Below are positions 2,868-54,947 of a DNA stretch of 64,000 bases, one piece after another. A program made the position numbers and the translations under genes. The notes below the pieces were generated by a model that worked only from the letters and a program-made list of their open reading frames with translations, did not search any database and was not told where the DNA came from. This DNA comes from Zygnema cylindricum. Its lineage: Eukaryota > Streptophyta > Zygnematophyceae > Zygnematales > Zygnemataceae. The stretch's first letter is position 1; the number at the start of each line of letters is the position of its first letter. Location of the stretch: NCBI GenBank assembly GCA_037447655.1, contig JBBHKE010002073.1, forward strand, positions 243,943 to 307,942. Direction: 5' to 3'.

Positions 2868-3098
2868 TGTTGGATTGGCACGTGGATGCCGATTCAATAC
2901 GGGGTAGAATATGGTAATTCCATACTCAAAGCCGCCCGACATAAATGGGTACAGACCCGCCAGACTCTACATCGAGCTGGTAGCACAGTGGTTAGTGCGT
3001 TCACAGCTTAAGTGAAAGGTCCCAGGTTCGAGCCCTGACCGGCTCAATTTTCCCCAGTGTGGGACATGCCGAATCCCAGATTTCTAGGAAATCCAACA
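2868..3098 (+). mobile_element. Solo LTR of a tRNA-carrying TRIM, with target duplication
   Basis: The 231-bp unit begins TGTTGGATTGG and ends ATCCAACA. It is flanked by a perfect 5-bp duplication, AGTGG at 2863-2867 and 3099-3103. It aligns along its whole length with the two 229-bp LTRs of the complete TRIM at 41737-42251, with scattered substitutions. Only one LTR is present, which is the usual product of recombination between the two LTRs of one insertion. It is inserted in a gag relic and carries a tRNA-like sequence at 2974-3045. Confidence 0.88.
2974..3045 (+). ncRNA. tRNA-like sequence inside the solo LTR
   Basis: The 72 nt fold by eye as a cloverleaf. The acceptor GAGCTGG pairs with CCGGCTC. 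The D arm is GCAC/GTGC with an 8-nt GG-containing loop. The anticodon stem TTCAC/GTGAA is fully paired around loop AGCTTAA, and the T arm has loop TTCGAGC with one mismatched pair. TAGCACAGTGG fits the Pol III box A consensus and GGTTCGAGCCC is close to box B. TTTT follows two bases after the 3' end. The loop would read CTT at 34-36, but position 33 is G instead of the near-universal T, so function in translation is doubtful. It may serve only as a Pol III promoter. Confidence 0.7.
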
Positions 3099-9779: not shown

Positions 9780-10728
9780 TTATTGTGAAATAAGACCTTG
9801 TTGAGTGGCAGTCCACTGAGTCCTTGGACTCAAAAGCCCCATAAAACCCCCATTGGACCCATTAAATCCTCTCCCTCCCGTAAAATCATTTCCGTGGTTT
9901 CCCCATCTCGGACTCGCCCCGAAAAAATCGCTCCAAGAATTTTGGACTAGTGTCTGACCACCACCTGGCGTCAATCCCAACGGAGAATAGGACGACGGAA
10001 TCTGCAACATAGATTCAGTCGGAGTCGGGAGATCATAATTCCAAAGACTGTCGACCGATTTCATCGAGTCTCCCTGTAAAATTTCATCGGTTCCGTTTAA
10101 CATTCCATTTAAGCTTCCATTCAGGTTTCCGTTCATGTTTCCATTCATGATTCCGTTCATGTTTCCATGTAAATTTCCGTGTAGATTTCCATGTACATTT
10201 TCAGAGACGTTTCCATTTCCTCCTCCGTTCCGTAACGCCCAACCGTCTTCCGTATCCATTTCCGGTTCTATTTTTACAATTCGAGGTTCTCGGATTCTCG
10301 CCACATCAGCATCGACTCCGAGAGGTCGGTCAAACGAAGTCAAATCTCCGAGGAGAGGAGAGGGTTTGACTTCGGTTTTAGGAGACTCGAGAGAGAGAGA
10401 ACCTCCTCCAGGGCGAGAGAGAGAGGCCAAATTGGGGGTGTCGAGAGAGAGAGGATCATTCTCGTAAGAGACGGTCCACCAAAAAGGTTCCGAAGAGTCA
10501 AAGTTATATAATCTGGAGGGAGAGAGAAAGAGAGGGAGAGTTAGTATTGTACTGAGAAAGAGAAAAATAAAGAGGACAGCAAAAGGGAAGGAAGAGGTTT
10601 TAGGAGAAAAGAATAAAAAAAAAATGAACAATTGGGATGGTCATGAAGCTAAAAAATAAAAGGGGACATTAACAGTGGGGAGGATAAAAAAGAGAGGGAG
10701 ACAGAAAGAGAGTTGGAGTTGCAATGAC

Positions 10729-10764
<36 letters not shown>

Positions 10765-12126
10765 TTCTCACCCTTGTTTAAACAGCGACGGGCTCAACAA
10801 TCCTCCAACATCTGTTCCCTCTCCCTTCCCCTCTCTCTCCTCACTCGGAATAATCAAACTGAGTGGCATTTGTCGCTTCTCCATCCCTCCACCACCTGTC
10901 CCCTCCAGCCTCGCCTTCACATTTCGTCCGCCTCCATTTCCATTTCCGTTTTCTTCGTCCTGTAGTGCCGCCCCTCCCTGTTGTCTTATTACACTCGTGG
11001 GAGACGCCGGAGTCTCTCCTTCGTCCAATGACAGGCTGTCCTCATCAGCACTTGACACCTGGCATGCTCTCTTTCTCTCCCTCTCCCCACTTTCTCCCAC
11101 CGATTCCTCTACAATCGCCACCTGGCGTCTCACAGAGCGTTTTCGACCAGCCCATCTTTTGACTCCGTTCCAATTTCCGTCCAATTTGTCTTTACTCTCA
11201 CCTTTTTCCTCATCCTTTTTGTCCTTTTCCTCATACATGTCATCAAAATTCTCCTCGTATTTCACCTCTTCTTCGAATTGTTCGTCCTTCACCAGACTGG
11301 GAGGGGGGAGAGGGAGAGGAAGAGGGAAAGAGGAGGAAGGAGGAGCAGCGGCACATTCTGGATAAGTCAAAAATCTTTTGGCTTCCTCTTTTTTCTGCAA
11401 AAATTCCTCGCCTTCGTCTTCATCCTCCTCGTCGTCCCCTGCCCAATCAGAATTCTCCGGCGATTTTGAAAAAGTCAAATAATTGACACCTGTCGCTCCC
11501 TCATTGGCTGAAAGGGGAGAGGGAGAGAGAGATGCAGTAGAATCCAAGGAGGATTTGAAAAGAGGGGGGGTGGAGGGAGGCCGGTGTCGTCGGGAAGCTT
11601 CTCCAGGGGGGGGTCCTCTCCGAGTAACTTTAATTTCTTTTTCGGAGTTTGCGACTTCGGAAAGGGGTTTATGAGTATTGGGGTCGATACCCATATCGCG
11701 TAATTTTCTTTTAATTCGGGTATTCCAATAATTTTTTATGTCGTTATCGGTTCTTCCGGGAAGTTCGGTGGCGATTCGAGCCCATCTGGAGAGGGAGAGA
11801 GAGGGAGAGAGAGAGAAAAAAAAAATGAGAAAAAGCTGGTTAAGATGACAGACATTTGAAATTTTTAGGGAATTGGTGAAATTGATATTAGATTCCAAGA
11901 GTCTTTTTAGTGGGTGGATCAATTTTTAGAGGGCAAATGCAAGGTCGTTAGAGATGCAAGATAATGCCAGATAGAGGGACAAAGAAAAGGGGAGAGAGAG
12001 AGAGAGAAAGAGAAAGAGACAGAAAGACGGAAAGAGTGAGAAAGAGAGAAAGAGACAGGGAGAAAGAGATAGAGACACACAGAGAGATAGAAAACGAGAG
12101 AGAGAGAGACAGAAAGAGAGACAGAA

Positions 12127-36736: not shown

Positions 36737-37759
36737 TGCAATTCTATGTCATCCATTGAACTACAAAATTCATGAAGCCTCTAGGTAGTTTTTAGCTAAC
36801 CCACTTTCAGCCACAACCACTGCTACCGAAGCAGACAAATTGACAATGTGAAAGCACCCCTGTGCAGTCTGGACTCCCCCGAGTATGTAGCAAAAACAAT
36901 CACTGAAAACGGCCAACCAGCTGATAAGTTATGAGGTGGTAAAAATGCCAATTTATACAAAAATCTCAAAGAGAGAGGTGACAGTCTAAAAATATGCTAA
37001 GTCCTAACCCCTCTCACAATCCCTATCTACTACAGTACGAACCAATAAAATAACTATACAGTACATAAAGGTACTATGGTCGATGTTCTTTCTGTACGAC
37101 GTGTGTACAACAAAGCCACTGAGTGGAGGCGTGTCAACCTTCCACTCGTATGTACGTTCCCCGGAATTCCGACGACCAAATGTTATCCCTCCACGTGGCG
37201 CCAGGTCATGCCACGTCCAAAAACGCCAAAGTGACCATTCCGGGATCCGGCAGCGATATATGTCGTTGGATAAAATCTGACATTGAATGTTAGTCGTCGA
37301 AACAAATGTCAAATTCATTTGTTTCGTGTGAAATGACGTTTGCACTGAAAATTAACAAGTTCTATGTTCCTTCATTCATAATTTAGTTACTCGGTTTCAA
37401 TATCATACGACAGTTTAAATATTTATCAAACCCTATGTATTTTAACGTACTTCCACGACAGACCGGTTAGAGCTGACGGCTACGCCTCGCTCTGCCGGTC
37501 AGAGGTTCGAGTCTTACCAGACTCAACCTTTTGTTGAAAGTGACTTAGGTCACTTTTTAGTCCTGCCTAAAAAGTTGAGGCAGCCATGGCTCTACTACTC
37601 TCTCTCTCCTTCAGTGACTACAACAAGTATGGGGGATAGAGCAAAGGGGTGGAGGCAGACTGCCTGCGCTTTTTCATTCTTTTTCTTCTAAGCTATTCAG
37701 ACCTACGAAATACTCTATAAATCTAGTGATTTCAACACTCCTTTTATTTTGTAGTATAA

Positions 37760-38103
37760 ATATAACTTTTCTTTCAATCCACGTTTTTCTCTACAATATT
37801 TTAACTTGGGAGAGGGCACAGGTTTGGTCATCATGTCAGCCACCATTTCTTTATCAGACCTATGCACAAGATTTACATTTTTTTTTCCACTTTTTCTCTC
37901 ACGAAACTCAATCTTATGTCCACATGTTTAGCTTTGAAATGATGTTTTGGATTGGATTCAATTAAAATGGCAGCTTGATTATCACAAAAAACTTCATGCA
38001 CTCCCTCCTTCATATACCCTAGTTCTTGCAACAAGAACTTGACCCACATGAACTCTTTCACCGCAGAACAAGAGGCCATATACTCAACCTCCATAGTAGA
38101 CAA
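37760..38103 (-). pseudogene. Element C RNase H, C-terminal part
   Basis: It reads LSTMEVEYMASCSAVKEFMW, FCDNQAAILIESNPKHHFKA and KHVDIRLSFVREKVE, the end of copia RNase H. The Glu and Asp catalytic positions are kept here. The N-terminal half continues at 45001, on the other side of element D. The open frame extending to 38319 runs into the LTR of D and is not one gene. Confidence 0.88.
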
Positions 38104-39158
38104 TGCAACACTGAGACCTCCATAGGTCCTCAGAGTAGGCAGCTCACACGAAGCCTCTAGGATAGCCCTAACCCCTTTGTGTTTTAGCAAGAAAAACTGC
38201 CACCCATGCAGACAAAAACTTTGACCATCTCCCCCCTTGTGAAGGCAAGACTTCCCTGAGGTGATAGCAAAAAGAATCTTTGAATTTGCTCCCCTGAGCA
38301 GTAAGTTATGGTGGGTCAAAGTTGACGTATTATAAAGAAGCTATTTCGGTGAGAGGGGCCTATCTACCAAATTTTTCTAAGTCCTATCACTCTCTTAAAC
38401 TGTATCTATTGACGTACGACACCAATCACAATATTGTGTTCTACAAAAAGGTATAGGTGCCGGTGTACTTTATGTACGGACATTGTACGATATTGCCAAA
38501 AAGTCAACACATGTCATACCTCGATTCGTTCTTGTTATTCTCGAAGTTGTCGTAATCCAATGTGGTTGTGCCACTTTTCAGTCCATTTGGCTTTGACCGC
38601 AAACCGCCAAAATCATATTCGCAATCTCGGCATCGTTCGCGGCCGTCTGATCAAAACTGGGTTTCAATCGTAGCTGTCATAAATACTTCCGCGATATTTG
38701 TTTCGCTCTCGAAAAAAAATGCGCGGTATCCGTTTCGAATCCGTACCGTATTCTTTACTTCAAAAAACTGAATCTATGCATGACGTATATAGTTGCCGTT
38801 AAATGAATTATTTCACATCTAATTATTTAGATATTTGTCAAACCCTATATATCTCAACCTTGATCTTAGACTTGTAGGATAAAGCTAACCGCTACGGCTA
38901 ACTTGACGGACAGCAGGTACCAGGATCAAATCCTAGGTCCGTCAAATATCCTTTTAGTAAACCTACTTAAAACATCTGCCTGTCTCTCTATAGACACCAT
39001 AGGCAGCCATGGCTCTATCTCTCTCTTCAACCTTAAGTGACTGCGACAAGCGTGGGAGTTGAAGAGAAGAGTTATAGGCAGACTTCCTCTGCTTCTTTTC
39101 TGCATTTTATCTTTTACAAAACCTAGAAAATAGTAAAAGAACCTTTAATTTCTACCCT

Positions 39159-40640
39159 CCCCTTATTTTTTAGTCACTTTTTAATTTAAGACCACCTGCA
39201 AAAAATTAGCTTAGGGGAAGGCACAGGTTTGGTCATCATATATGCTCCCATTTCACTATCTGGTTTATACTCCAAACTGGTTATCTTATTTTCTACTTTC
39301 TCCCTAACGAAGCTAAGTCTAATGTCCATTTGTTTAGCTTCAAATTGATGTTAAGGATTGGCAGAAATGGCAATGGCCGCCTAATTATCACAAAACACCT
39401 TTTGGACACCACTCTTAAAATGACCAAGCTCACTAAGCAAAGACTTGACCCACATTAATTCTTTTACAGGAGAGCAAGAAGCCATGTACTAAGCCTCAAT
39501 GGTGGACTGAGCAATGACCTTTTGCTGCTTGCTGCTCGAGCTGCAAGCCCCATCACCCACATAAAATACATATGCTGACGTGCATCTCCTCATAGGAGCA
39601 TCCCATAGCTAGCATCACTCCAAGTGGTGATGTTAGTATTGCTCCCACCCAAATGCAACCATAGATCTCTAGTCCCTATGAGATATCTAAGGACTCTCTT
39701 AGCTACCTCCCAATCCTTCTTAGTGGAAGCATTCAGACTCATGTTTAGTACTTCTACAGATGCGGCTATATCCGGCCGAGTACAATTCATGAAATATATT
39801 AGGCTGCCCACTACTTGCCTATAAGGAATTGTCTACATAAATCTTTTCTCTTCAGGGCCTAACTTATCATCAAAGATTATAACTCCCTCTTCCACACTCC
39901 CGTCACTTCCCTTCTTTAGTTCCATTGGAGTGGTACAACTATTAGCCTTATCCATTTGGAATCTCTCTAACATGTTTCCAATGGCTTCCTTCTAAGTTAA
40001 TCTTATTATCTTTCTATTTTTCTCTCTCTCTACCTGAATTCCCAAAATATACCTTGCTTTCTCCCATATCTTTCATCTCAAATCTTCCTTTTAGATCATT
40101 TTTCAACTTATTAATTTTATCCATGGATTTTTTAAAACAATAAATCATCAACATAAATTGCAAAAATTAATTCCTTCTCATCTTCAACAAATAAATCGAG
40201 TGATCTGACTGATCGAGTATCCATCTGTAAGGAACTCATGGCTTATACCATTGTGGGCGCTAATTCAACAATACAAAGATTTATAAATCGGCTACTCTCC
40301 CCTTGCTCCCAACCTTCGGGCGTCGCGAAAATCTCCTCTTCCAACTCTCCATGTAGAAAGGTCGTCTTGATGTCCATCTGATGTACTTCCATGTCTTCTG
40401 ATGCCGCCCAACTGAGAAATATCAAAACGGAGGGAAACAAGTCGACCGGGGAAAATGTCTCCTCGTTGTCAATTCCCTCTTTTTGGGTAAATCCTTTCGC
40501 AACTAACCGAGCCTTATAACGCTCAATGGTGTTATCCATGTTGAGTTTCAGCTTAAATACACATTTGCACCCAATTGGCTTCATGTCAAGAGGACAATCT
40601 ACCAATTCTTATGTATCAGCCGCGATAATTGAGGCCATCT
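39159..40640 (-). pseudogene. Element D RT and RNase H
   Basis: RT N-terminal half at 40605-40243: KPIGCKCVFKLKL, ERYKARLVAKGFTQKEGID and HQMDIKTTFLHGELEEEI. The catalytic YVDD region near 40150 is broken: the plus strand still shows the complement of the surrounding codons, but frames shift. RNase H is at 39811-39300: SLIYFMNCTRPDIA, LRYLIGTRDLWLHLGG and TTWSDASYG, then degenerate sequence to the 3' LTR. Confidence 0.85.
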
Positions 40641-41736
40641 CCTCATTAATGGTTGTCTTCCACCGGTTTCTCTTAGGAAAATTCATTGCCTCATTATACG
40701 TTTGACGTTCATCAAGGTGAGACAGTTATGTTACCTTATTGTTAACTTGTCTCTCTTGCAGTCTTTTGCTGCTTCTTCTTCCTCCTTCAAACTCAGTTGC
40801 CGGAATAGATGGCTTATTTGGATTCTTCCAATCAGTTTCTACTTCTCCCCTATCACTTGCTTCCGGGTCGATTTCCACCACGTCTTCCCCTTCGGTTGGA
40901 GTTCATACTAGGGGTTCCACATTTGGGTCCTTCTCGATTTGATTTGTACCTGCAAGATCATCATCTTCTTGAAATCCTGGATAGTTAGGAAGCTCAAAGT
41001 CATCACAATTTTTTGTCTCAAATGTGATTTTGACTGTCTTTGTATGCTTAAAGGGATCTATAGATCTCCCTTGATCCATTACCACTAGATGCTTCACTAG
41101 GATTATATCTTCTCTCTTGAGATCATACACTCTCTATCATTTTACATCTTCATCATATCATAGTAGATATCCTAGTTTTCCTTTTGGATCTTACTTGCAG
41201 TTTGACCAATCTGTGTCTAAACTGAACACTTGACTACTGAAAACCTTTAAGTGTGAAACATCTGATTTTTGGCCTGTCCATCTCTCATAAGGTGTTTGGC
41301 CTTTTACTGCCGAAGTAAGAACTCTATTCTTGATATAATTTGCACAGTTCATTGCTTTGGCCCAAAACTTCTTTCCTATCATCTTATTTGATAGCATACT
41401 CCTAGCACTATCACTCAGTGTTCTATTTAATCTTTCAGCTACACCATTTTGCTCACGATTTTTAGGAACTATCTTTTAGTGTTGCACTCCATCTTCTCTC
41501 AGAAAATCCTCAAATTGGTTAGAGGTATACTCTCCACCATTGTCACTCGTTACTCTCCTGGTTGAGGTTTCATGGAGTTTTTCACTCCATGCTTTATATT
41601 GTCTAAAACATTCTTAAGCCCTCTGACTTATTTTTCAAAAAATACACCCTAGAATACTAAGACCAATCATCGGTGATAGTCATCATAAATCTTTTCCCCC
41701 CGGGTGAGGGCACTCAGGGCGGCCCCCAAATATCTT
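40640..41736 (-). pseudogene. Element D integrase, downstream part
   Basis: 41397-41191 has NKMIGKKFWAKAMNCANYIK and NRVLTSAVKGQTPYERWTGQ. 41130-40903 has MYDLKREDIILVKHLVVMDQ and the acidic linker. Remnants of the integrase core lie at 41650-41400. The rest of the core is on the far side of the TRIM insertion. Confidence 0.82.
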
Positions 41737-41841
41737 TGTTGGATTGGCACGTGAAGCCGGTCCAATACGGGGTATAATATAGAAATATCCATACTCGAGC
41801 CGCCCGTAATAAATGGGTACGGACCCGCCAGTCTCAACATC

Positions 41842-41912
41842 GAGCTGGTGGCACAGTGGTAGTGCGTTCGCAGCTGAAGTGAAAGGTCCCAGGTTCGAAC
41901 CCTGGCCGGCTC
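41842..41912 (+). ncRNA. tRNA-like gene in TRIM LTR1
   Basis: The 71 nt form a complete cloverleaf by eye. Acceptor GAGCTGG/CCGGCTC has seven pairs with one G-T. D arm GCAC/GTGC carries loop AGTGGTA. Anticodon stem TTCGC/GTGAA surrounds loop AGCTGAA (34-36 = CTG). The variable loop has 5 nt, and T arm CCAGG/CCTGG has loop TTCGAAC. Box A TGGCACAGTGG fits consensus, and box B GGTTCGAACCC differs at one base. TTTT at 41915-41918 is a ready Pol III terminator. Position 33 is G, not T, and no CCA is encoded. A role in transcription is more likely than one in translation. Confidence 0.78.
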
Positions 41913-41965
41913 AATTTTCCCAAGTGTGGGACATGCCGAATCCCAGATTTCTAAGAAATCTAACA

Positions 41966-41978
41966 TGGTATCGGAGCC
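41966..41978 (+). other. TRIM primer-binding site
   Basis: TGGTATCGGAGCC follows LTR1 directly. It complements the 3' terminal bases of plant initiator tRNA-Met, including CCA, with one position that would pair as G-U. This is the standard plant primer site, unlike the half-tRNA site of the surrounding copia elements. Confidence 0.85.
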
Positions 41979-42011
41979 AGCGGGATTGCGGATGGTTTGA
42001 CCGGCTTTCCC

Positions 42012-42022
42012 GTGAGGGGGGG
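42012..42022 (+). other. TRIM polypurine tract
   Basis: GTGAGGGGGGG lies immediately before LTR2, in the position of a plus-strand priming tract. Confidence 0.7.
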
Positions 42023-42127
42023 TGTTGGATTGGCACGTGAAGCCGGTCCAATACGGGGTAGAATATGGAAATATCCATACTCGAGCCGCCCGTAATAAAT
42101 GGGTACGGACCCGCCAGTCTCAACATC

Positions 42128-42198
42128 GAGCTGGTGGCACAGTGGTAGTGCGTTCGCAGCTGAAGTGAAAGGTCCCAAGTTCGAACCCTGGCCGGCTC
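42128..42198 (+). ncRNA. tRNA-like gene in TRIM LTR2
   Basis: It is identical to the LTR1 copy except for one G-to-A change in the 5' side of the T stem (CCAAG), which breaks one pair and also alters box B. TTTT follows at 42201-42204. Confidence 0.75.
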
Positions 42199-42251
42199 AA
42201 TTTTCCCAAGTGTGGGACATGCCGAATCCCGGATTTCTAGGAAATCTAACA

Positions 42252-43080
42252 ATCTTTGTGGACTAAATCTAGAATCTTTTCTCCCTTATAGGTGGCAGTT
42301 TTTGGGAATGGTAACCTATGTGCTTTACCATGAGCACATCCACTACAATCACTTAGATTCTCACTCTCAGCGAACTGAATCCCTTCCACTACTCCCATCT
42401 TTTTCATCTCTCTTAACTTATCTAGATTCACATGCCCAAGCCTCTTAGGCCACATTATTATATCATGAACACTAGCATAATAAAGTTTCTTCTTTTCATT
42501 GCTTAAAATCAGCCTAAACATCCCTTGGCTACCTTTTTGAGCTGTGAAATAAACTTCCTCCTCAAAACTAGCAGTAAAGACTCCTTTCCTAGTGTTTATA
42601 TCAAAACCCTTATTATCTAATACAGACGTAGAGATGAGGTTTTTGTTCAGCTCCGAAATAAACAATTCATCGGAGAATGTAACTATGGATGTCTTTCCTT
42701 CTACTAATACTTTCACATCTACCGATTTTACAAGAGTAGTAGTGATTATCATCCCATCCCCGTACTCTATCTCTACGGTGGGAATATTTCTTATCTTAGT
42801 GAATAGGTGTTTATCCTTACACATGTGCATGGAGGCACTTGAATCTATAATCCAACCTGCTTCACCTTTGAATCCACCGAAAACACATTTCTGCTTTCGT
42901 GGAATTTCGACCCCGTTTTTCGCTTCCAACTCATCCAATAGGAGTTCATCGTCCTCGTCCTCAGTTTCCACCTCATGTACTTGTGTCACAAGGGCCTTTT
43001 TTTTTCCTCCCGGGGGTCCATCGGTCTGCCCCTCTTTTAGCCAAAGCTCGGTTAACTTAGTCCACTCTGCCATATAGTGT
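42252..43080 (-). pseudogene. Element D protease and pre-integrase
   Basis: An open frame of about 275 codons with an acidic linker, then the protease site WIIDSSASMHMC near 42850. The catalytic Asp is kept, and the following Gly is Ser. Then come TVEIEYGDGMIITTTLV, MFRLILSNEKK, RLGHVNLDKLREM and DCSGCAHGKAHRLPFP, the zinc-binding pre-integrase region, up to ILDLVHKD where the TRIM starts. Confidence 0.88.
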
Positions 43081-44000
43081 CATGGTTTCTTACAAAAGTG
43101 GCACAAATCCTTGGGAGCCTTTGGTTCGAACTAATCAGTTTGATTTTTCTGCCCCCCCGTTCCATAATTTCCGACCGGTTTCCAGGAATCATTATCCCTC
43201 CAATCGGTCCCAGGTGCCAAGGCTTGCCCACTCTTTCCTCCCCTTTAGATCTCAATCATATTCTCCCGAACAAGAATCATCCCTACCATTAAATTCCATA
43301 TCCACCTTGAGTCAGGCAAGTCGTGCACACTGTTGACTATGTTGTCGAACTCATCTACTGACTTCATGAGCAAGCACTTAACCTTCATCTTTTCAGTTTC
43401 AACCTGTCCAGCACTCTCTAGCTCCATGAAAAGTGTTGCAAGCTCATTACAAAAATCTAACATCTTCCCCCCCTTGTATACACATGCGTCTATTTTCCGA
43501 TCAGCCGACTACTATTGTTGAATCGTATCACTTTGGTACATCTCTATGAGAGCCACCCAAAGATCGAATGCCCACTCTACCTGGCAATGAGGAGATGCAA
43601 GCCTTTGAGTAAGATGGCGAAAGATGATGTGTTATGCCCCCATATTGTTGTAGTCCCTGGCATCGCTATCATTCTCCTCGTTCCTTTGAATAGGTGACAT
43701 GAATGCCGAACCGGTTGCTATTGGTGTGACCGTCTCCTTCTCTTTTCTTTTGTCCACCACCTCCCCTTTCTTTGTCTCCTCCGTTGGAAATGGATCTGCA
43801 TCTTTGGTGAATCTGCTTACTGTAAACCTTGGTGGGATCCCAAGACTGGATGGACGCCTCACCCGTCCACTCACTATTCCCCAAAACTGTTTCTTATATA
43901 AAGCTCCTCTCATCATACTTTCCCAGTATATGAAGCTTGTTCAATTGAAAATGGTCACCCTAGAGGGTGGGCCCATAACCTACAACTTTGAGACCTCCAT
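43081..44000 (-). pseudogene. Element D gag
   Basis: The start codon at 44000 lies 20 bases inside the LTR, but a stop (TAG) sits at the LTR edge. The frame then reads VMGPPSRVTIFN across the primer site. 43916-43632 has MMRGALYKKQFWGIVSGRV and a Lys/Glu-rich stretch. 43463-43245 has a capsid-like FMELESAGQVETEKMKVK. The zinc knuckle near 43085 reads CHFCKKP then a break. Confidence 0.82.
43966..43980 (-). other. Half-tRNA-type primer-binding site of element D
   Basis: GGTTATGGGCCCACC directly follows the 5' LTR on the minus strand. It is a perfect 15-base complement to the anticodon stem-loop region of plant initiator tRNA-Met, as far as I recall that tRNA. Confidence 0.75.
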
Positions 44001-45000
44001 GGGTCCTCAGAGTAGGCAGCTCACATAAAGCCTCTAGGATACCCCTAGCCCCTTTATGTTTCAGCAAGAATAACTGCAACCTTGGTAGACAATACTGTTA
44101 CCAGCTTCACCCCTGTGAAGGAAAGACTTCCTTGAGTTTATAGCAAAAAGAATCTCTGAATTTGCTCCCCTGAGCAGTAAGTTATGGTGGGTCAAAGTTG
44201 ACGTATTATACAGAAGCTATCTCGGTGAGAGGGGCCTATCTACCAAATTTTTCTAAGTCCTATCTCTCTCTAAAACTCTATCTATTGACGCACGGCACCT
44301 ATCACAATATTGTGTCGTACAGAAAGGTACACATACCGGTGTACTTTCTGTACGAACATTGTACGATATTGCCAAAAAGTCGACACATGTCATATCTGGA
44401 TTCGTTCCTGTTATTCTCGGAGTTGTCGCATCCACGGTTAGCACAGCAGTCGTTAGGCACTAAACCGCCAAAATCCTATTTTGCAATTCGGCATCGTTAA
44501 GCCGTCCGATCAAAACCGGGTTTCAATGTAGCCTATAAATACGGCGATATTTGTTTCGGCCGAAATAAATGCCATATCCGCTGAACTGTACCGATTTTAC
44601 TTCACAAAATTGAATCTATGCATGACGTATATAGTTGCCGTTAAATGAATTATTTCACGTCTAATTATTTAAATATTTGTCAAACCCTATATATCTCAAC
44701 GTTGATCTTAGACTTGGAGGATAAAGCTAACCGCTGTTGGCTAACTTGACAGACGGCATGTACAAGGATCAAATCCTCTGTCTTTCAAATATCCTTTTAT
44801 TAAACCTTTTAAAAACAACTGCATGTCTCTCTCTGGAGAACATAGGCAGCCATGGCTCTTTCTCCCTCTTCAACCTTCAATGACTGCGACAAGTGTGGGA
44901 GGTGAAGAGAGGAGTTAGAGGCAGACTGCCTGTGCTTCTTTTCTGCATTTTATCTTTTACAAAACCTATAAAATACTAAAAAAACCTTTTAATTTTTATA

Positions 45001-46042
45001 GACTGAGCTACCACCTTTTGTTGTTTGCTGCTCCAATAGCAAGCACTTTCCCCAACATACAACACATACACAGAAGTGCATCTTCTCATAAGTGCATCAC
45101 CATAACTTGCATCACTCCAAGTAGTGATATTAGTGTGCTCCCCTCCCAAATGCAACCATACTTCTCTGGTTCCCACCAGATATCTCATGACTCTTTTGGC
45201 TGCCTCCTAGTCTCTTTTCCTAGGATCATTAAGACTCCTAGTGAGTACTCCAACTGTTGCTTCTATGTCCGGTCTAGTACAGTTCATGAAGTATATTAGA
45301 CTTCCTACAACCTACCTGTAAGGAATAGTTTTCATAAACTCTCTCTCTCTGCTGGACTAATTTGATCATCTAGAATTATCACTCCACCTTCTACACTTCT
45401 ATCACTTACTTTGTTCAAGTCCATGAGAATGGTACAACTCTTTGCCTTTTCTATCTGGAATTTCTTAAGCATATTACCTATTGCTTCTTTCTGAGTAAGT
45501 CTAATGATCCTTTTCCCCCTATCTCTCTCAATTTGGATTCCCAAAATATACCTTACCTCTCTTAAATCCTTCATGTCAAATTTGCTTCTAAGATCTTTCG
45601 TTAATTTATTGATCTTTTCCAAAGACTTACTTAACACCAGCAGATCATCCACATAAATTGCAATAAAAATCACACCATTTTCATCTTCAAACATATAGAT
45701 AGTATGGTGAGAGCTGATCCGGATACATCCGTGTCCGATGAGAAACTCATCTAATTTCTTATTCCAATCTGAAGGAGCCTGCTTCAGTTCATATGAGGAC
45801 TTTATGAGCCTGCAGACTTTGCTCTCTTCTCCGTCCTCCACAAACCCCTGTGGTTGCCGCATGAAAATTTCTTCCTCTAACTCACCATTAAGAAAGGCTA
45901 TCTTAATATCCATCTTGTGTATTTCCATGTCTTCCGCTACTGGTAGACGGAGGAGAATCTTTACTGATGGGAAGCGAACAACTTGGGCAAAAGTCTCCTC
46001 ATAATCAATCCCCTCTTTCTGGGTGAACCCTTTTGCTACCAA
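45001..46042 (-). pseudogene. Element C RT and RNase H, N-terminal part
   Basis: 46042-45332 is a 236-codon frame of reverse transcriptase, the longest in this element. It has VAKGFTQKEGIDYEETFA, HKMDIKIAFLNGELEEEIF, the catalytic FIAIYVDDLLVLS, and DLREVRYILGIQIERDRG. RNase H begins at 45300 with YFMNCTRPDIEA, LRYLVGTREVWLHLGG, TTWSDASYG and ACYWSSKQQKVVAQS. It stops at the insertion of element D. Confidence 0.9.
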
Positions 46043-47200
46043 TCAAGCCTTATATCTCTCAATGGTATTATCTGGGTTTAGTTTTGGTTTAAACACCCAT
46101 TTACAGCCAATCGGTTTTTTTGTCTGGAGGACAACCGCTAATTCCCAAGTATTTGCTTCCATGATGGAGGTCATCTCATCATTTATGGCTCTAATCCATC
46201 TGTCTTTCTCCAGACTGTTCACTGCCTCTGAGTATGACTGAGGCTCATCTAGGTGAGATAGCTTAGTTACCTTGTGAGCGGCCTTCTTTTCTTGTATCCT
46301 TTTGCTGGTAATTCTCCCTCCCTCAAACTCCGAAGCTGGAATGGAGGGAAGTCTTGGATTTCTCCTTACTGTCTCATTAGCTCCCCTATCCATGGAAGCC
46401 GATTCCGGTTCCTCCTCTTTTGTCTCCTCAAAGTCCATAGGAATATGTGAGGTTCCCAGAAGATCTCTTGTATCGTAGATCTCCCCTGAATCTGCAATCA
46501 CTGTTTCACTCATGTCCCTTTCGGGAAAGACAGAGTCCTCTACACTTTTGGACTCAAATATGATTCTTATCTTCTTGGTATATTTGAAGGGGTCAAGTGA
46601 CTTCCCTCCATTCATGACAACTAGGTGTTTGACCAAAATGATATTTTTCTTTGCTAAGTCATAGATTCTATATCGCTTGACATCCTCATCATATCCTACA
46701 ACGTATCCAGGTTTTCCCTTAGCATCTAGTTTCCAGTTTTACCTATCCGTGTGAAGACTGTATACTTGGCTACCGAATACTTTAAGGTGAGAGATATCTG
46801 GTTTCCTTCCAACCCATCTCTCATAAGGTGTCATTCCTTTTACAGTTGAGGTAAAGACTCTACTCTTAATGTAGTTGGCACAGTTCATGGCTTCAGCCCA
46901 AAATCTCTTTCCTATTTTCTTGTCGGCCAACATATTGCATACACTATCTCCTAGTGTTCGGTTCAACCTCTCAGCTACCCAAATTTGTTTCGGGTTACAT
47001 GGTACGGTTTTCTGGTTGTTGAACTCCCTCATCTTTCAAGTATTCCTCAAACTGGTTAGAGGTATATTCCCCCCCATTATCACTCCTTATTCTCTTAATG
47101 GGGGTTCCATGTAACTTCTCACTCCAAGCTTTATATTCTTTGAAGTAAGTTGGTGTTTCATACTTTGTTTTTAGGAAGTAGACTCAAGAGTATCTAGACT
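46043..47200 (-). pseudogene. Element C integrase
   Basis: 47032-46739 carries the integrase core end, VAERLNRTLGDSVCNMLADK and KIGKRFWAEAMNCANYIKSR. 46636-46043 has the C-terminal part and an acidic linker leading to the RT start KKPIGCKWVFKPKLNPDNTI. The catalytic core between 47200 and 47040 is broken: the DNGGEY region is still recognisable in another frame. Confidence 0.85.
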
Positions 47201-48104
47201 AGTCATCAGTTATTGTCAACATAAACCTTTTTCCTTGGACCGAAGGTACTTTTGCAGGTCCTCGGATATGTGTGTGGACCACATCTAGTACTTTCTCACC
47301 CCTATATGTGGCGGCTTTGGGAAAGGGAAGTCTGTGAGCCTTACTTTGAGCACAGCCACTACAATCATCCACCATTTCATTATCCCCAAACTGAATGCCT
47401 TTTACTATACCAAGCTTATTCATTTCCCTTAGCCTATCAAAATGCACATGCCCCAACCGCTTATGCCAAATCATCAACTTTGAAACACCAACATAGTAAG
47501 CATTCTTTTTTTTATTACTTAGGTTAAGTCTAAACATTTCTTGGCTACCCTTATCTGTCGTGAAGTAGGCTTCATCCCCAAACTTAGGTGTAAAATCTCC
47601 CTTTCTAGTGAATGTATCAATCTCTTTATCATCTAACACTAACGTAGAGACAAGATTTTTACTCAGTTGAGGAATGAAGAGTAAATCTGAGAAGGTGAGT
47701 ATATAAGTCTTACCCTCCACTAAGACTTTCAGATCTACCGGCCCCACTATATCTGTAGTAGCCACTCTCCCATCCCATACTCTATCTCTACAGTATGGAT
47801 CTTTCTTAGCTTCGTAAAGAGGTGCTTATCACGGCACATATCCATGGATGCACCTGAGTCGATGATCCATCCTTCCTGTGGAGCTTCTCGAATTGCTCCG
47901 AGGGCACAATTCTGTTTCCGGGGGATCTCCTTCTCCTCTAGACTCTCGTCAAGAAAAAGCTCCCCATCCTCCTCCACGGAGGACTCGTCCTTGGTCTCTC
48001 CTTTCACTTTTGTGACCACAAGTGCCTTCTTCTTCCCTCCTGAAGAACTCCCTCCACGGTTCTCTTCGAGCCTAAGCTTTGACAGCTTGACACAATCCGC
48101 TATG
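47199..48104 (-). pseudogene. Element C protease and pre-integrase
   Basis: 48019-47747 includes the acidic gag tail and the protease site WIIDSGASMDMC with an intact catalytic Asp. After a frameshift, 47765-47199 continues with YILTFSDLLFIPQLSKNLVS, MIWHKRLGHVHFDRLREM and DDCSGCAQSKAHRLPFP. The first integrase motif is altered (VVHTHIRGP instead of a D-W pair), so it would be inactive. Confidence 0.87.
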
Positions 48105-49519
48105 TGTTGTTCTTTAGTCTACAATAGACCCCAGAAGCGACCCAAACTATCAACCGTAAAGCTAAGCAAATATAGTCCAATGAACAATCCTTTGAAATGA
48201 ATGCCCTCCAAACAAATGAATGCATTCCCAGATGCATTACTAAAAAATCCCCATCAGACACACCATAGGTTTCCCAAAAAGACACAGGCTAGACACACCA
48301 TAGGTTTGCAAACCTACACCGGTTCCTCATAGATCAGACACACAATAGGTCCGCGAATCTGTGACCATTTCACACAGACCAAACACCCGTGGGTTTGCAA
48401 ATCTGTGGAAAACCTAAGACCACCCTAGGACAAATGCATACACAGGTGCATTACACAAAAAGACAAATACATGCACAATGCATGACCAACAAACACAAAA
48501 ATAACATATATAAATAATAATAAATTAATGCCATCCCACATAACCAAATATATAATCACATAATTAGATGTATCACTTAAGTGCATGACCTAACCGGCAA
48601 CCCTAAAAGACTACATCTTCGGTCCCTACTTTTCATGCTAAGCATTGATTCCAAACGCTTACAAAGCTCATAGCTATATATACACTTGTAAGCTGTCAGC
48701 CAATCATGTAACTGTCACTAAGTCCTGTTTAAGGGTAATAAACTACTACTAAGAGTAATTTAATTGTAAGCGTACACCTGAGAGTCAAACAATCATAAGC
48801 GTACACTTGTCAACAATTATAACACTTCACATACACTAGTTAAACAGTCGAAACCCTAACCCACTAAATAACACCTCACAAAAACATAAACCTTTGTAAA
48901 ATAGCGGCAGACGTCGTCCGCCGTCAAATGTAAGATAATCCACTTGCCGAAATGAAACCAAACAATCCAAATTCCTTTTCGTACAGAAACCGCGTCCACT
49001 TCAATAAATGCGGCTTGTCACATATAAGGTACATGTCATTTTGCCACACCTGCCGCCCGTCGCAAATAAAGTACACCTGTCCAAAATAGATACGACGTAC
49101 TGGCCGCGTCCCTTTTTCATTAATGCGCCTGTTACATTATGTCTCGTACTGCCGACGTACATTTTTTAACACTTCAAATATTTCAAGTCGGATCGCTTCG
49201 CGATCCACCGTCCATTTATATTACTCATTCCGCGCCACTCAAACAATCCTTTACGTCCCTTTTAAATTTATCCGTACATTTACTCCCCCAATTTATGAAA
49301 CCATGCGAGCCTCCACGCAACACTTGGTAAACATGTACGCACTAAAACCCGCGTACACACGAAACATCCCCCTTACACAAACTCTTATGGCTGATATGGT
49401 TGCTCTGATCGGTCAGCGCAGCTGCAATATTAGAGCAGCGCAGCTACGATGTCAAACTAGCCCAACATGGCAGTATAGCAACGTGATATACAGAGGACTA
49501 AAGGTTTCGAAAAACAACA
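48105..49519. mobile_element. Solo LTR of an unrecognised family inside element C gag
   Basis: The 1415-bp unit starts TGTTGTTC and ends AACAACA. It is flanked by CTATG (48100-48104) and TTATG (49520-49524), a 4-of-5 match. On both sides the gag zinc-knuckle codons of element C join when it is removed. It has no gag or pol. At 48265-48415 it contains four imperfect units built on AGACACACCATAGGTTTGC. The open frame at 49123-49551 crosses its right border and is not a gene. Orientation cannot be set. Confidence 0.75.
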
Positions 49520-49524
49520 TTATG

Positions 49525-49691
49525 AAGTGTCCCGACTTTTTGCAAAAGTGAAAAAGATCTTTGGGGGCCTCGGTCCTCCAGACTTATCTCTCTCTCAATT
49601 GTACTATTTCTTCGGATCCTTCCCCCACCGGTTAGCTCCTACAGCTAGAGCTTGGATGCTCTATCCTACTCTCCTAATCTCCATTGTGTTC
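49525..49691 (-). pseudogene. Element C gag, zinc-knuckle region
   Basis: A short piece of gag, homologous to element B at 34080-34250, lies between two insertions. It holds the end of the knuckle and the basic stretch preceding it. Confidence 0.75.
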
Positions 49692-51399
49692 TCTTGAAAT
49701 TTATGTATTTTCTACGTCTGCATTGGAAAAATAAATAGAGTAAGTCAGCGAAGGCAGACTGCTTCTCGCTCAACTCTCTCCAGTCACCATACTTGTTGCA
49801 GTCACTGAAGACCAGAGAGAGAGCTAGAGCCATGGCTGTCTAAAGAGGATAGGCTAATTCGTAGTTTGTACCAAAAGAGGACTGCCAGAAACCGGATTTG
49901 ATTCTGGTACCTACCATCCTTAATAGCGGTTAGCTTTAGCCTATAGCTTAGAGTCAATGAAAAACATCACGATAAGTAATTGAAGGCACCACTTAAGCCC
50001 AATTACAAATATATGTTGTTGGCGCAATGTTGGAAAATCAAACCTAAACAACTAGTCGAAATCGGGAGGTTATTTTGTTGACGAGCGACCGACCCCTCCA
50101 AAAGATACAAATCTCATGACCAACAAGGCGGCGAAGCACACCCAAAATATTAATGTCAAAATCTTGAAAAGAAAGCAAAAATGAAACCATTAGTGGCAGA
50201 TTTCACGCAAGATAGAGAGGGCGTTAAACAAAACCAGTGATCGAGCTTGCAAACGCCAATTGTGAGTTCTAAAATTTAGGATGGTCGTCACCATGGGGAG
50301 GTCTTCTAAAAAAGCATTTGAAATTTATGTATTTTCTAAGTCTGTATTGGAAAAATAAATAGAGTGTTGGAAAAAGGTAATTAATAGTTCTCTTCTATAT
50401 TTGAGTTAGAATGTAAAAAGAAAGAAAGAGAGGACCAAAGGCATGCCATGGCTGTTGCGTCATTTAGAAGGAGGCAGAATGAATTTACTAGTTTTAGCAG
50501 AATACAACCTCTGGCCGGAATTGAACGGGGGTCTGCAGAATACTATGTAGACCAATGCCTTATCCACTAAGGCACTAACGAAACGATACACATGAAATGT
50601 TTCACGCATATATATTTATTGATCTATAGGACTAATTCGCAGCAGACTAACGAAAACGCGCATTAATCAATTCATGCATGGAAGCGAATCGAAGCCGTAT
50701 AAATAGAACAGATCGGACGACCACCATTACAGCCGCCGCCCACAATAAGCTTTCGGCGGCCTTTAGGGATAGCGTCACACGGTGCCACGTGGTGCCACAT
50801 AATTTAATACCGGAGAAGATGGGAGAAGGAACTATGGCTCTCGATTTGGCAGATGTCACCTTGTAGACCATGTTTACAATGGCCGTACAATAAGTACATC
50901 ACCCATCGTACCTTCTTGTACTATATAGTGTTCCTATTCGACTAGGGTTTAGTAGTAGGTAGTTGTGAGTAAGCAGACCAAGACTTAGTGATATTTAGGT
51001 ACCTCTCTCTAAGAGAGCTTGTAACTATAAAGGTCATCTTTGACTAGCCATAACTTAATGCTCGGGTGAGAAAATTCAGTGATTCTTTTTGCTACGGACT
51101 CGGGGGAGTCCAAGCTACACAGGGTTGTAGTAGTCTGAGTCTTTGAGTGCCAGGGTGGCACTTATTCAGTGAGAAAGTCAAAGTGGGGAATATTGTCTAA
51201 AACACATATTCAAGCTTTGCATTCTGTGGTGGAACTGAGCACACAGAAGGTCTTCTCTTCACTAGGGTGAAGGTGTATTGGGGTTTTGATTATCAAGGGA
51301 TCATTTATTTGGGTTTATATCAACTTGGATTCGACACTATCTAGATTAGCTTCTTTTGGATTTGCGAATTCTGCGGGCAATGGAGCCCATAGAATTTCA
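49692..51399 (+). mobile_element. E-family LTR insertion in element C gag, with target duplication
   Basis: TGTTC lies on both sides (49687-49691 and 51400-51404). The 1.7-kb unit ends with the E-type LTR terminus GGAGCCCATAGAATTTCA. Its first 45 bases recur at about 50318, so the left 630 bases are an extra segment between two copies of the LTR start. From 50318 to 51399 it aligns with the E1 LTR at 53855-54947. It holds a GTAC cluster at 50884-50926 and an antisense tRNA-like sequence at 50510-50580. Confidence 0.8.
50510..50580 (-). ncRNA. Antisense tRNA-like sequence in the E-type LTR
   Basis: On the minus strand GTGCCTTAGTGGATAAGGC forms a D arm with box A character, similar to plant tRNA-Arg D arms. 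It is followed by a paired GGTCT/AGACC and then CGTTCAATTCC, a box B-like T arm. The acceptor stem is not intact. It is degenerate relative to a tRNA. Confidence 0.45.
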
Positions 51400-53854: not shown

Positions 53855-54947
53855 TGTTGAAATTTATGTATTTTCTAGGTCTGTATTGGAAATATAAATA
53901 GAGTGTTGGAAAAAGGTAGTTAATAGTTCACTTCTATATTTGAGTTAGAAGGTAAAAAGAGAGAAAGAGAGGACCAAAGGCAGGCCATGGCTGCTGCGTC
54001 ATTTAGAAGGAGGAAGAATGAATTAGAAGGTATTTTACTAGTTTTAGCAAAATACAACCTCTAGCCGGAATTGAACCGGGGTCTGAATACTATGTGGACC
54101 CATGCCTTATCCATTAAGGCATTAACGAAACGATACACATGAAATGTTTCACGCATATATATTTATTGATCTATAGGACTAATTCGCAGCAGACTAACGA
54201 AAACGCACATTAATCAATTCATGCATGGAAGCGAATCGAAGCTGTATAAATACAACAGATCGGGCGACCACCATTACAACCGCCACCCACAATAAGGTTT
54301 CGACCGCCTTTGGGGATACGTCACACGGTGCCACGTGGTGCCACATAATTTAATACCGGAGAAGATGGGAGGAGGAACTATGGCTCTCGATTTGGCAGAT
54401 GTCACATTGTAGACCTTGTCGTACAATGGACGTACAATAAGTACATCGCCCATTGTACCTTCTTGTACTTTATAGTGTTCCTATTGGACTAGGGTTTAGT
54501 AGTAGGTAGTCGTGAGTAGGCAGACCAAGACTTAGTGATATATAGGTACCTCTCTCTAAGAGAGCTTGTAACTATAAAGGTCGTCTTTGACCATCCATAA
54601 CTTAATGCTCGGGTGAGAAAATTCAGTGATTGTTTTTGCTACGGACTCAGAGGAGTCCAAGCTACACAGTGGTGTAGTCGGCCAAAGTCTTTGCGTGCTA
54701 GGGTGACACTTATTCAATGGGAAAGTCAAAGTGGGGAATATTGTCCAAAACACATAATCAAGCTTTGCATTCTGTGGTGGACCTCAGCACACAGAAGGTA
54801 TTCTCTTCACAAGGGTGAAAGTATATTGGGGTTCTGATTGTCAAGGGATCATTCATTTGGGTTTATATCAACTTGGAGGCAGCACTATCTAGAATAACTT
54901 CTTTTAGATCTGCGAATTCTGTGGGCAACGGAGCCCATAGAATTTCA
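53855..54947 (+). repeat. E1 3' LTR
   Basis: 1093 bp from TGTTGAAATTTATG to AGAATTTCA. It has the antisense tRNA-like sequence at 54061-54130, CACGTGG near 54333, and the GTAC cluster at 54421-54470. The gag start ATGG has changed to ACGG at its right end. Confidence 0.88.
54061..54130 (-). ncRNA. Antisense tRNA-like sequence in the E1 LTR
   Basis: On the minus strand box A-like TGCCTTAATGG (54121-54111) and consensus box B GGTTCAATTCC (54077-54067) are 44 bases apart, as in an intronless tRNA gene. GCCT/AGGC makes a D stem and CCGG/CCGG a T stem. The anticodon arm is enlarged and the acceptor does not pair. A T4 run follows. It could still recruit Pol III; this is untested. Confidence 0.5.

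Follow-up and report, generated by a model that had tools for sequence, protein, structure and literature searches.

TRIMs that carry a tRNA-derived sequence in their LTRs are known under the name Helenus. They were described in fungi, animals and one plant by Kojima 2024 (PMC10886601), the one paper found in a literature search by that name, and are grouped there with Cassandra as TRIMp3. In the parts of that paper drawn on here, Selaginella moellendorffii is the sole plant with Helenus, the elements range from 311 to 1263 bp, and Pol III transcription is not shown for the published elements (section 4.1). The family described below fits the Helenus type as set out in those parts and appears to be a new and well-preserved case of it, probably from a plant. 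Its layout had therefore already been described; the preliminary description of this locus, which knew of no family with such a layout, is not supported on this point.

So far as the same parts of PMC10886601 go, Helenus and the present family both carry tRNA-derived sequence in each LTR and retain boxes A and B there; they also share a primer-binding site (PBS) and a polypurine tract (PPT) bounding the interior, 5-bp duplications (for Helenus, in plants and fungi) and solo LTRs. Tandem arrays, present here, are reported there for zebrafish LTR-11_DR. The element studied (515 bp) lies inside the published size range and, with LTRs of 229 bp and an interior of 57 bp, differs in these lengths from Helenus-1_SMo (LTRs 120 bp, interior 85 bp). 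Base-pair covariation and the exchange of a tRNA 5′ half in one LTR are not mentioned in those parts of the paper.

Cassandra is likewise a TRIM with part of a Pol III gene in each LTR, and the parallel with it drawn in the preliminary description is apt. The primer site TGGTATCAGAGC, given for Cassandra as a search pattern in the cited part of PMC7215508, and tandem arrays are also shared; Cassandra carries 5S rRNA sequence, the present family a tRNA-like one instead. Plant TRIM arrays of L3I2 to L5I4, with duplications drawn around them (Fig. 2 legend), were found in 35 of 43 genomes with TRIMs (Gao 2016, PMC4717578) and resemble the arrays seen here; unlike the present family, they have no tRNA part reported in the portions of that paper used, and the word tRNA is absent from its main text. 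tRNA-derived SINEs (SINE2) are likewise short mobile elements whose Pol III promoter derives from a tRNA. To our knowledge, SINEs have no LTRs, PBS or fixed 5-bp duplications; unlike them, the element described here has all three.

The window is the whole stretch of DNA analysed (64,000 nucleotides of Zygnema cylindricum, contig JBBHKE010002073.1). The window element, at 41737-42251, is an LTR element of 515 bp. Its features are sorted below by position; the type of evidence is given last.

41732..41736, no strand: target-site duplication ATCTT, left copy, perfect; sequence.
41737..41965, + strand: 5′ LTR, 229 bp; repeat scan, same boundaries in genome copies.
41737..41841, + strand: putative U3 of the 5′ LTR, 105 bp; deduced from where the cloverleaf begins.
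41842..41913, + strand: tRNA-like cloverleaf, with the T-run the putative R region; ARAGORN, RF00005 (53.6 bits), fold.
41849..41860, + strand: box A TGGCACAGTGGT; sequence.
41892..41902, + strand: box B GGTTCGAACCC; sequence.
41915..41918, + strand: TTTT, candidate Pol III terminator; sequence.
41966..41980, + strand: primer-binding site TGGTATCGGAGCCAG; sequence, same site in genome copies.
42014..42022, + strand: polypurine tract GAGGGGGGG; sequence.
42023..42251, + strand: 3′ LTR, 229 bp; repeat scan.
42128..42199, + strand: tRNA-like sequence in the 3′ LTR, box B with a single substitution; ARAGORN, RF00005 (48.1 bits).
42201..42204, + strand: TTTT behind the tRNA-like part of the 3′ LTR, predicted end of the full transcript; sequence.
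42252..42256, no strand: target-site duplication ATCTT, right copy, perfect; sequence.

In a repeat scan of 41500-42500, the LTRs are direct repeats of 229 nt each, 98% identical and spaced 286 nt start to start. Both start with TGTTGGATT and end with AATCTAACA; the 57-bp interior has TGGTATCGGAGCCAG at its start and GAGGGGGGG at its end. The scan and the sequence thus bear out the LTRs, their ends, the duplication and the purine tract as first described. The assignment to TRIMs also stands, the element having 515 bp, two LTRs, a PBS, a PPT and no ORF of at least 150 aa. The PBS had been claimed to be of initiator type; it recurs in the genome copies, and we take it to be of the initiator tRNA-Met type, complementary to the 3′ end of that tRNA.

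One tRNA per LTR is called by ARAGORN, at 41842-41913 and 42128-42199. The two RF00005 scores are to be read against a gathering score of 29; the match of the 3′ LTR was missed under fast filters and was scored in a second Rfam scan. Folded at minimum energy, the tRNA-like part gives a cloverleaf in the 5′ LTR and no clean cloverleaf in the 3′ LTR. A cloverleaf-capable part of 71 nt had been claimed for each LTR; both parts are recognised as tRNA, with a length of 72 nt once the unpaired terminal A is included. No unusual folding energy was found for either part relative to shuffles (z -0.66 and -0.68), and the part in the 5′ LTR has a tRNA-like shape of ordinary stability. Boxes A and B and the TTTT lie where the preliminary description had placed them; box B of the 3′ LTR differs by a single substitution (AGTTCGAACCC).

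The family was searched for in the whole genome (352.8 Mb, 2689 contigs). The exact pattern of the junction between LTR end and primer site gave 119 matches, its reversed control 0; both variants of the primer site (G and A forms) are present among these matches (GAGCC after TGGTATC). The search with the whole element gave at least 53 matches, its counts being lower bounds because only 40 of the 981 candidates were scored. A perfect 5-bp duplication was found at 24 of 30 loci of that search (21 of 27 distinct places). Loci L001-L136, a non-random sample of best matches and of copies with the exact junction, hold 124 LTR chains after flank-based removal of repeats, 39 of which were dropped for incomplete ends. 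The remaining 85 comprise 61 two-LTR elements, 6 arrays of three to five LTRs and 18 single LTRs; these counts describe the sampled loci and are lower bounds.

Two-LTR elements have a perfect duplication in 33 cases out of 61 and none that is perfect in 28. Their LTRs are identical in 6/61 and have two differences or fewer in 17/61, so some transposition is recent. A single duplication surrounds the whole array in 5 of the 6 tandem arrays. Six of the 18 single LTRs have a duplication and are therefore true solo LTRs; several other single-LTR rows are pieces of elements or arrays, either broken or cut by the limits of the fetched stretch. The family of the window element is recently active, non-coding and mobile. 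Closely spaced TRIM LTR copies are clustered on both strands in L130 (C144:50900-52500). At L004:815-947, a hairpin matches Rfam mir-4716 on both strands, below the gathering score; it is perhaps an inverted-repeat element.

The tRNA-like part is found in most of these copies. RF00005 covariance scans, one of the checks on the LTRs proposed beforehand, took in 39 of 46 loci and gave 85 matches (38.8-56.9 bits) on the approximately 93 LTRs counted in those 39; 8 of these LTRs (in L022, L026, L028, L030, L039 and L041) have no RF00005 match at E 0.01. ARAGORN made 60 tRNA calls on 61 distinct LTRs that were picked by likeness. From the loci and the window, 112 distinct stretches were extracted between the U3 motif and the T-run; 10 were dropped (7 of unrelated sequence; 3 truncated, rearranged or internally duplicated), which leaves 102 distinct tRNA regions, a set confined to copies that have both the U3 motif and the T-run. 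The box A pattern is exact in 85 of the 102, the box B core in 84, and 85 are called by ARAGORN. The family thus carries the tRNA-like part as a constant feature. The copies sampled show neither a chance insertion into a single copy nor the loss of both boxes from most copies, either of which the preliminary description would have taken as speaking against its reading. A chance tRNA-like match was rejected, the LTR unit recurring genome-wide. So was identity with 5S or Cassandra: the Rfam scans give tRNA and no 5S in the LTRs.

It is highly improbable that the LTRs spread real decoding tRNA genes, that is, an expanded tRNA-Gln set. ARAGORN does type 69 of its 85 calls in the 102-region set as tRNA-Gln (CTG in the 61-LTR set), and Rfam scores reach 56.9 bits. 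Decoding tRNAs need U33. Of the 102 distinct copies, 95 have G at position 33 and a single one has T, which excludes a decoding role; the anticodon drifts, with G in 83, C in 11, T in 6 and A in 2 at position 36. With U33 missing and the anticodon unstable over the 102 regions, a functional tRNA gene was rejected. For the published Helenus sequences, the parts of PMC10886601 used give isotype disagreement by tRNAscan-SE and mostly predict no working tRNA; position 33 points the same way here.

The preliminary description had a tRNA gene supply the LTR with a Pol III promoter. The term "tRNA gene" went too far, given position 33; most copies retain both boxes and the T-run, and a promoter role is probable. 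The element is likely a member of a young non-autonomous LTR family (a Helenus-type TRIM) that would be transcribed by Pol III from the internal promoter of the 5′ LTR and mobilised by an autonomous LTR retrotransposon. The tRNA-shaped sequence in the LTRs probably switches the element on. RNA polymerase III would bind the internal promoter of the 5′ LTR and start near 41842, sometimes read through the TTTT at 41915 and stop at that of 42201; the transcript would measure about 360 nt and carry the tRNA-like part at its two ends. If transcripts start with the tRNA-like part and end at the T-run, the lengths of U3, R and U5 would be roughly 105, 77 and 47 nt. The repeated tRNA-like part could then act as R in the first strand transfer; initiator tRNA-Met would prime at 41966 and the purine tract would prime the second strand. 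Reverse transcriptase and integrase would be provided by an autonomous LTR retrotransposon, perhaps Copia, and recombination between LTRs would yield the solo LTRs and tandem arrays.

In the 5′ LTR, too, TTTT comes directly behind the tRNA-like part. On a simple Pol III model the RNA would stop there after about 75 nt, and read-through must be assumed. According to PMC10886601, transcription of Cassandra runs from the 5S sequence in the 5′ LTR to the 5S sequence in the 3′ LTR, so that it faces a similar difficulty.

The same TTTT, in speaking against a long Pol III RNA, favours an ordinary TRIM with a Pol II promoter in U3, in which the tRNA-like part would be a passenger from a SINE or a tRNA gene. 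Such an origin of the transcript is considered unlikely, although Pol II promoters are attributed to all known TRIMs other than Cassandra in a passage of PMC10853983, which deals with the promoters of Cassandra. A TATA-like stretch is present at LTR 37-45 of the window element; its letters are peculiar to that element, LTR position 39 being G in 60/61 LTRs and T in 1/61, and this weakens the Pol II alternative. Divergence between subfamilies also bears on the question. A longer D loop characterises older copies (L047-L049, L082, L085, L091, L094, L096, L110, L112, L121 and L126) that are about 78-90% identical to the LTR of the window element. Fourteen LTRs of the older subfamilies were complete enough to be compared with it; none is from L091 and some are old/young hybrids. 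In these, differences amount to 24% at 53-105 (U3), 18% at 1-52 and 16.3% at 185-229 (U5); the tRNA-like part has 12.7% and the stretch with the T-run 11.5%. That the tRNA part is less diverged than the adjacent U3 (12.7% vs 24%), and that its pairs covary between subfamilies, goes against a passenger. A passenger would fit better with the differences inside the tRNA part (box A 9.4%, box B 14.3%, rest 13.2%): box B does not stand out from the rest and is conserved no better, and box A is conserved only slightly more. One A-to-G change, at a free position of box B, is common to 12 of the 14 older rows. Among the young copies (61 LTRs), diversity is 0.0118 in the tRNA part, 0.0179 in U3 and 0.0135 in the rest; the lower value of the tRNA part proves little, because the copies were picked by likeness. 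Pol III transcription of the window element, as predicted from its sequence, remains the preferred reading.

Base pairs of the cloverleaf covary between subfamilies, including those of the anticodon stem. Two alignments were used: A1, with 41 rows (one for the young type, the others being 40 out of 45 tRNA stretches that have at least 3 differences; five length variants were left out, besides three rearranged stretches), and A2, with 18 rows (the young type and 17 diverged rows, four of which, two of L088 and those of L093 and L109, were cut by hand). Scored against the standard cloverleaf, A1 has 92.3% paired cells and a covariation of 0.168 (0.015-0.060 in slid versions), A2 92.0% and 0.203 (slid 0.020-0.082). 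Cells changed on both sides of a pair number 23 in A1 vs 8.5 (sd 2.4) when shuffled and 16 in A2 vs 6.4 (sd 2.5), with 0/500 shuffles as high in either case; these counts are inflated by related rows, since few independent events were inherited by several copies. Pairs with a change on both sides are 7 in A1 (shuffled 4.2, 19/500 as high), which is not above two of the slid versions (7 and 8), and 6 in A2 (16/500 shuffles as high; slid at most 3). The few independent events chiefly concern two pairs of the anticodon stem and one of the D stem. When RNAalifold was run de novo on A1, which includes the poorly aligned row of L056, it recovered the D and anticodon stems and not the full cloverleaf. 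These alignments provide moderate evidence that an RNA shape has been kept, beyond boxes A and B.

The cloverleaf might then be under selection as RNA: R would mimic a tRNA at either end of the transcript and help an uncapped, non-polyadenylated Pol III RNA to leave the nucleus, to persist or to be packaged, with a promoter half exchangeable between lineages like a cassette (L056); this is proposed tentatively and is more doubtful than not. The covariation could also come from whole tRNA pieces swapped between lineages, with no selection on RNA shape, an origin that is thought somewhat unlikely. Swapping was seen once, in the two-LTR element of L056 (C66:35964-36482; L056:1212-1728; found again in L129), and the partial duplications of the tRNA 5′ half in L097, L098 and L106 point in the same direction. 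The anticodon stems argue for stepwise change instead: the older copies have CTGAC/GTCAG, TTGAC/GTCAA, TTCAC/GTGAA or broken forms (as in L048), which form a series of intermediates with the young type TTCGC/GTGAA.

The LTRs of the L056 element are identical outside columns 107-150, and all of the 17 differing columns lie within them. In the 5′ LTR alone, the tRNA 5′ half is of another sequence that includes a standard box A, and ARAGORN still calls a tRNA there. U3, U5 and the 3′ half show no change, the interior has 57 bp and the TGTTA duplication is perfect. No donor of the alternative half was seen by motif in L001-L076 or among the 112 extracted stretches. It may have been acquired through gene conversion once the element had inserted, or through template switching during reverse transcription. 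The tRNA-like part is internally duplicated or rearranged in LTRs of L097, L098, L106 and L079, the box A half being doubled in some.

The covariation between subfamilies, the near absence of T at position 33 (1/102) and the 5′ half swapped in one LTR are the new elements of this description. Identical LTR pairs, more than 100 junctions and several subfamilies make Helenus transcription testable in this family, which offers a defined prediction of start and stop and natural variants of boxes A and B. The covarying stems could separate promoter function from a function of the RNA shape. tRNA-like LTRs also inflate automatic tRNA gene counts, as in the rust fungi treated in the cited part of PMC10886601.

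In the window, the element is surrounded by Copia-type sequence on the opposite strand, with Pol_BBD and gag_pre-integrs at 42249-43073 and RVT_2 in other units. Self-repeats of the window place the next Copia unit at an offset of 5537 bp to the left of the element and 5016 bp to the right; the 521 bp by which the right offset is smaller correspond, within a base, to the element and its duplication. The Copia units of 38100-49980 are apparently in tandem, one LTR region being common to the pol end of a unit and the gag start of the next. An older member of the element's family (L047), whose LTR is 89.7% identical to the 5′ LTR of the window element, is found elsewhere in the window.

2868..3098, + strand: solo LTR (L047); AGTGG duplication on both sides.
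2974..3046, + strand: tRNA-like part of the solo LTR; ARAGORN, RF00005 (49.5 bits).

A Copia-like primer site, TTGGTATCGGAGC, of the same G form as that of the TRIM, lies at 2303-2315, with this solo LTR downstream; a Copia with a G-form primer site is a weak hint at the kind of helper. tRNA-like stretches antisense to gag/pol occur in Copia copies at 37455-37530, 38865-38950 and 44705-44790 (+ strand) and at 50530-50600 and 54060-54121 (- strand). They adjoin an apparent LTR end and could represent primer sites whose complementarity extends along most of a tRNA. Copia LTRs with a Pol III promoter of their own were considered and found unsupported, these stretches being antisense to gag/pol and having no ARAGORN or RF00005 call. 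A MYB-type gene with at least two exons (partial match to Pfam Myb_DNA-binding) is located at 9780-11922 (- strand) of the window and, together with the Copia families, suggests a plant host; its motif is presumably of the plant R2R3 type.
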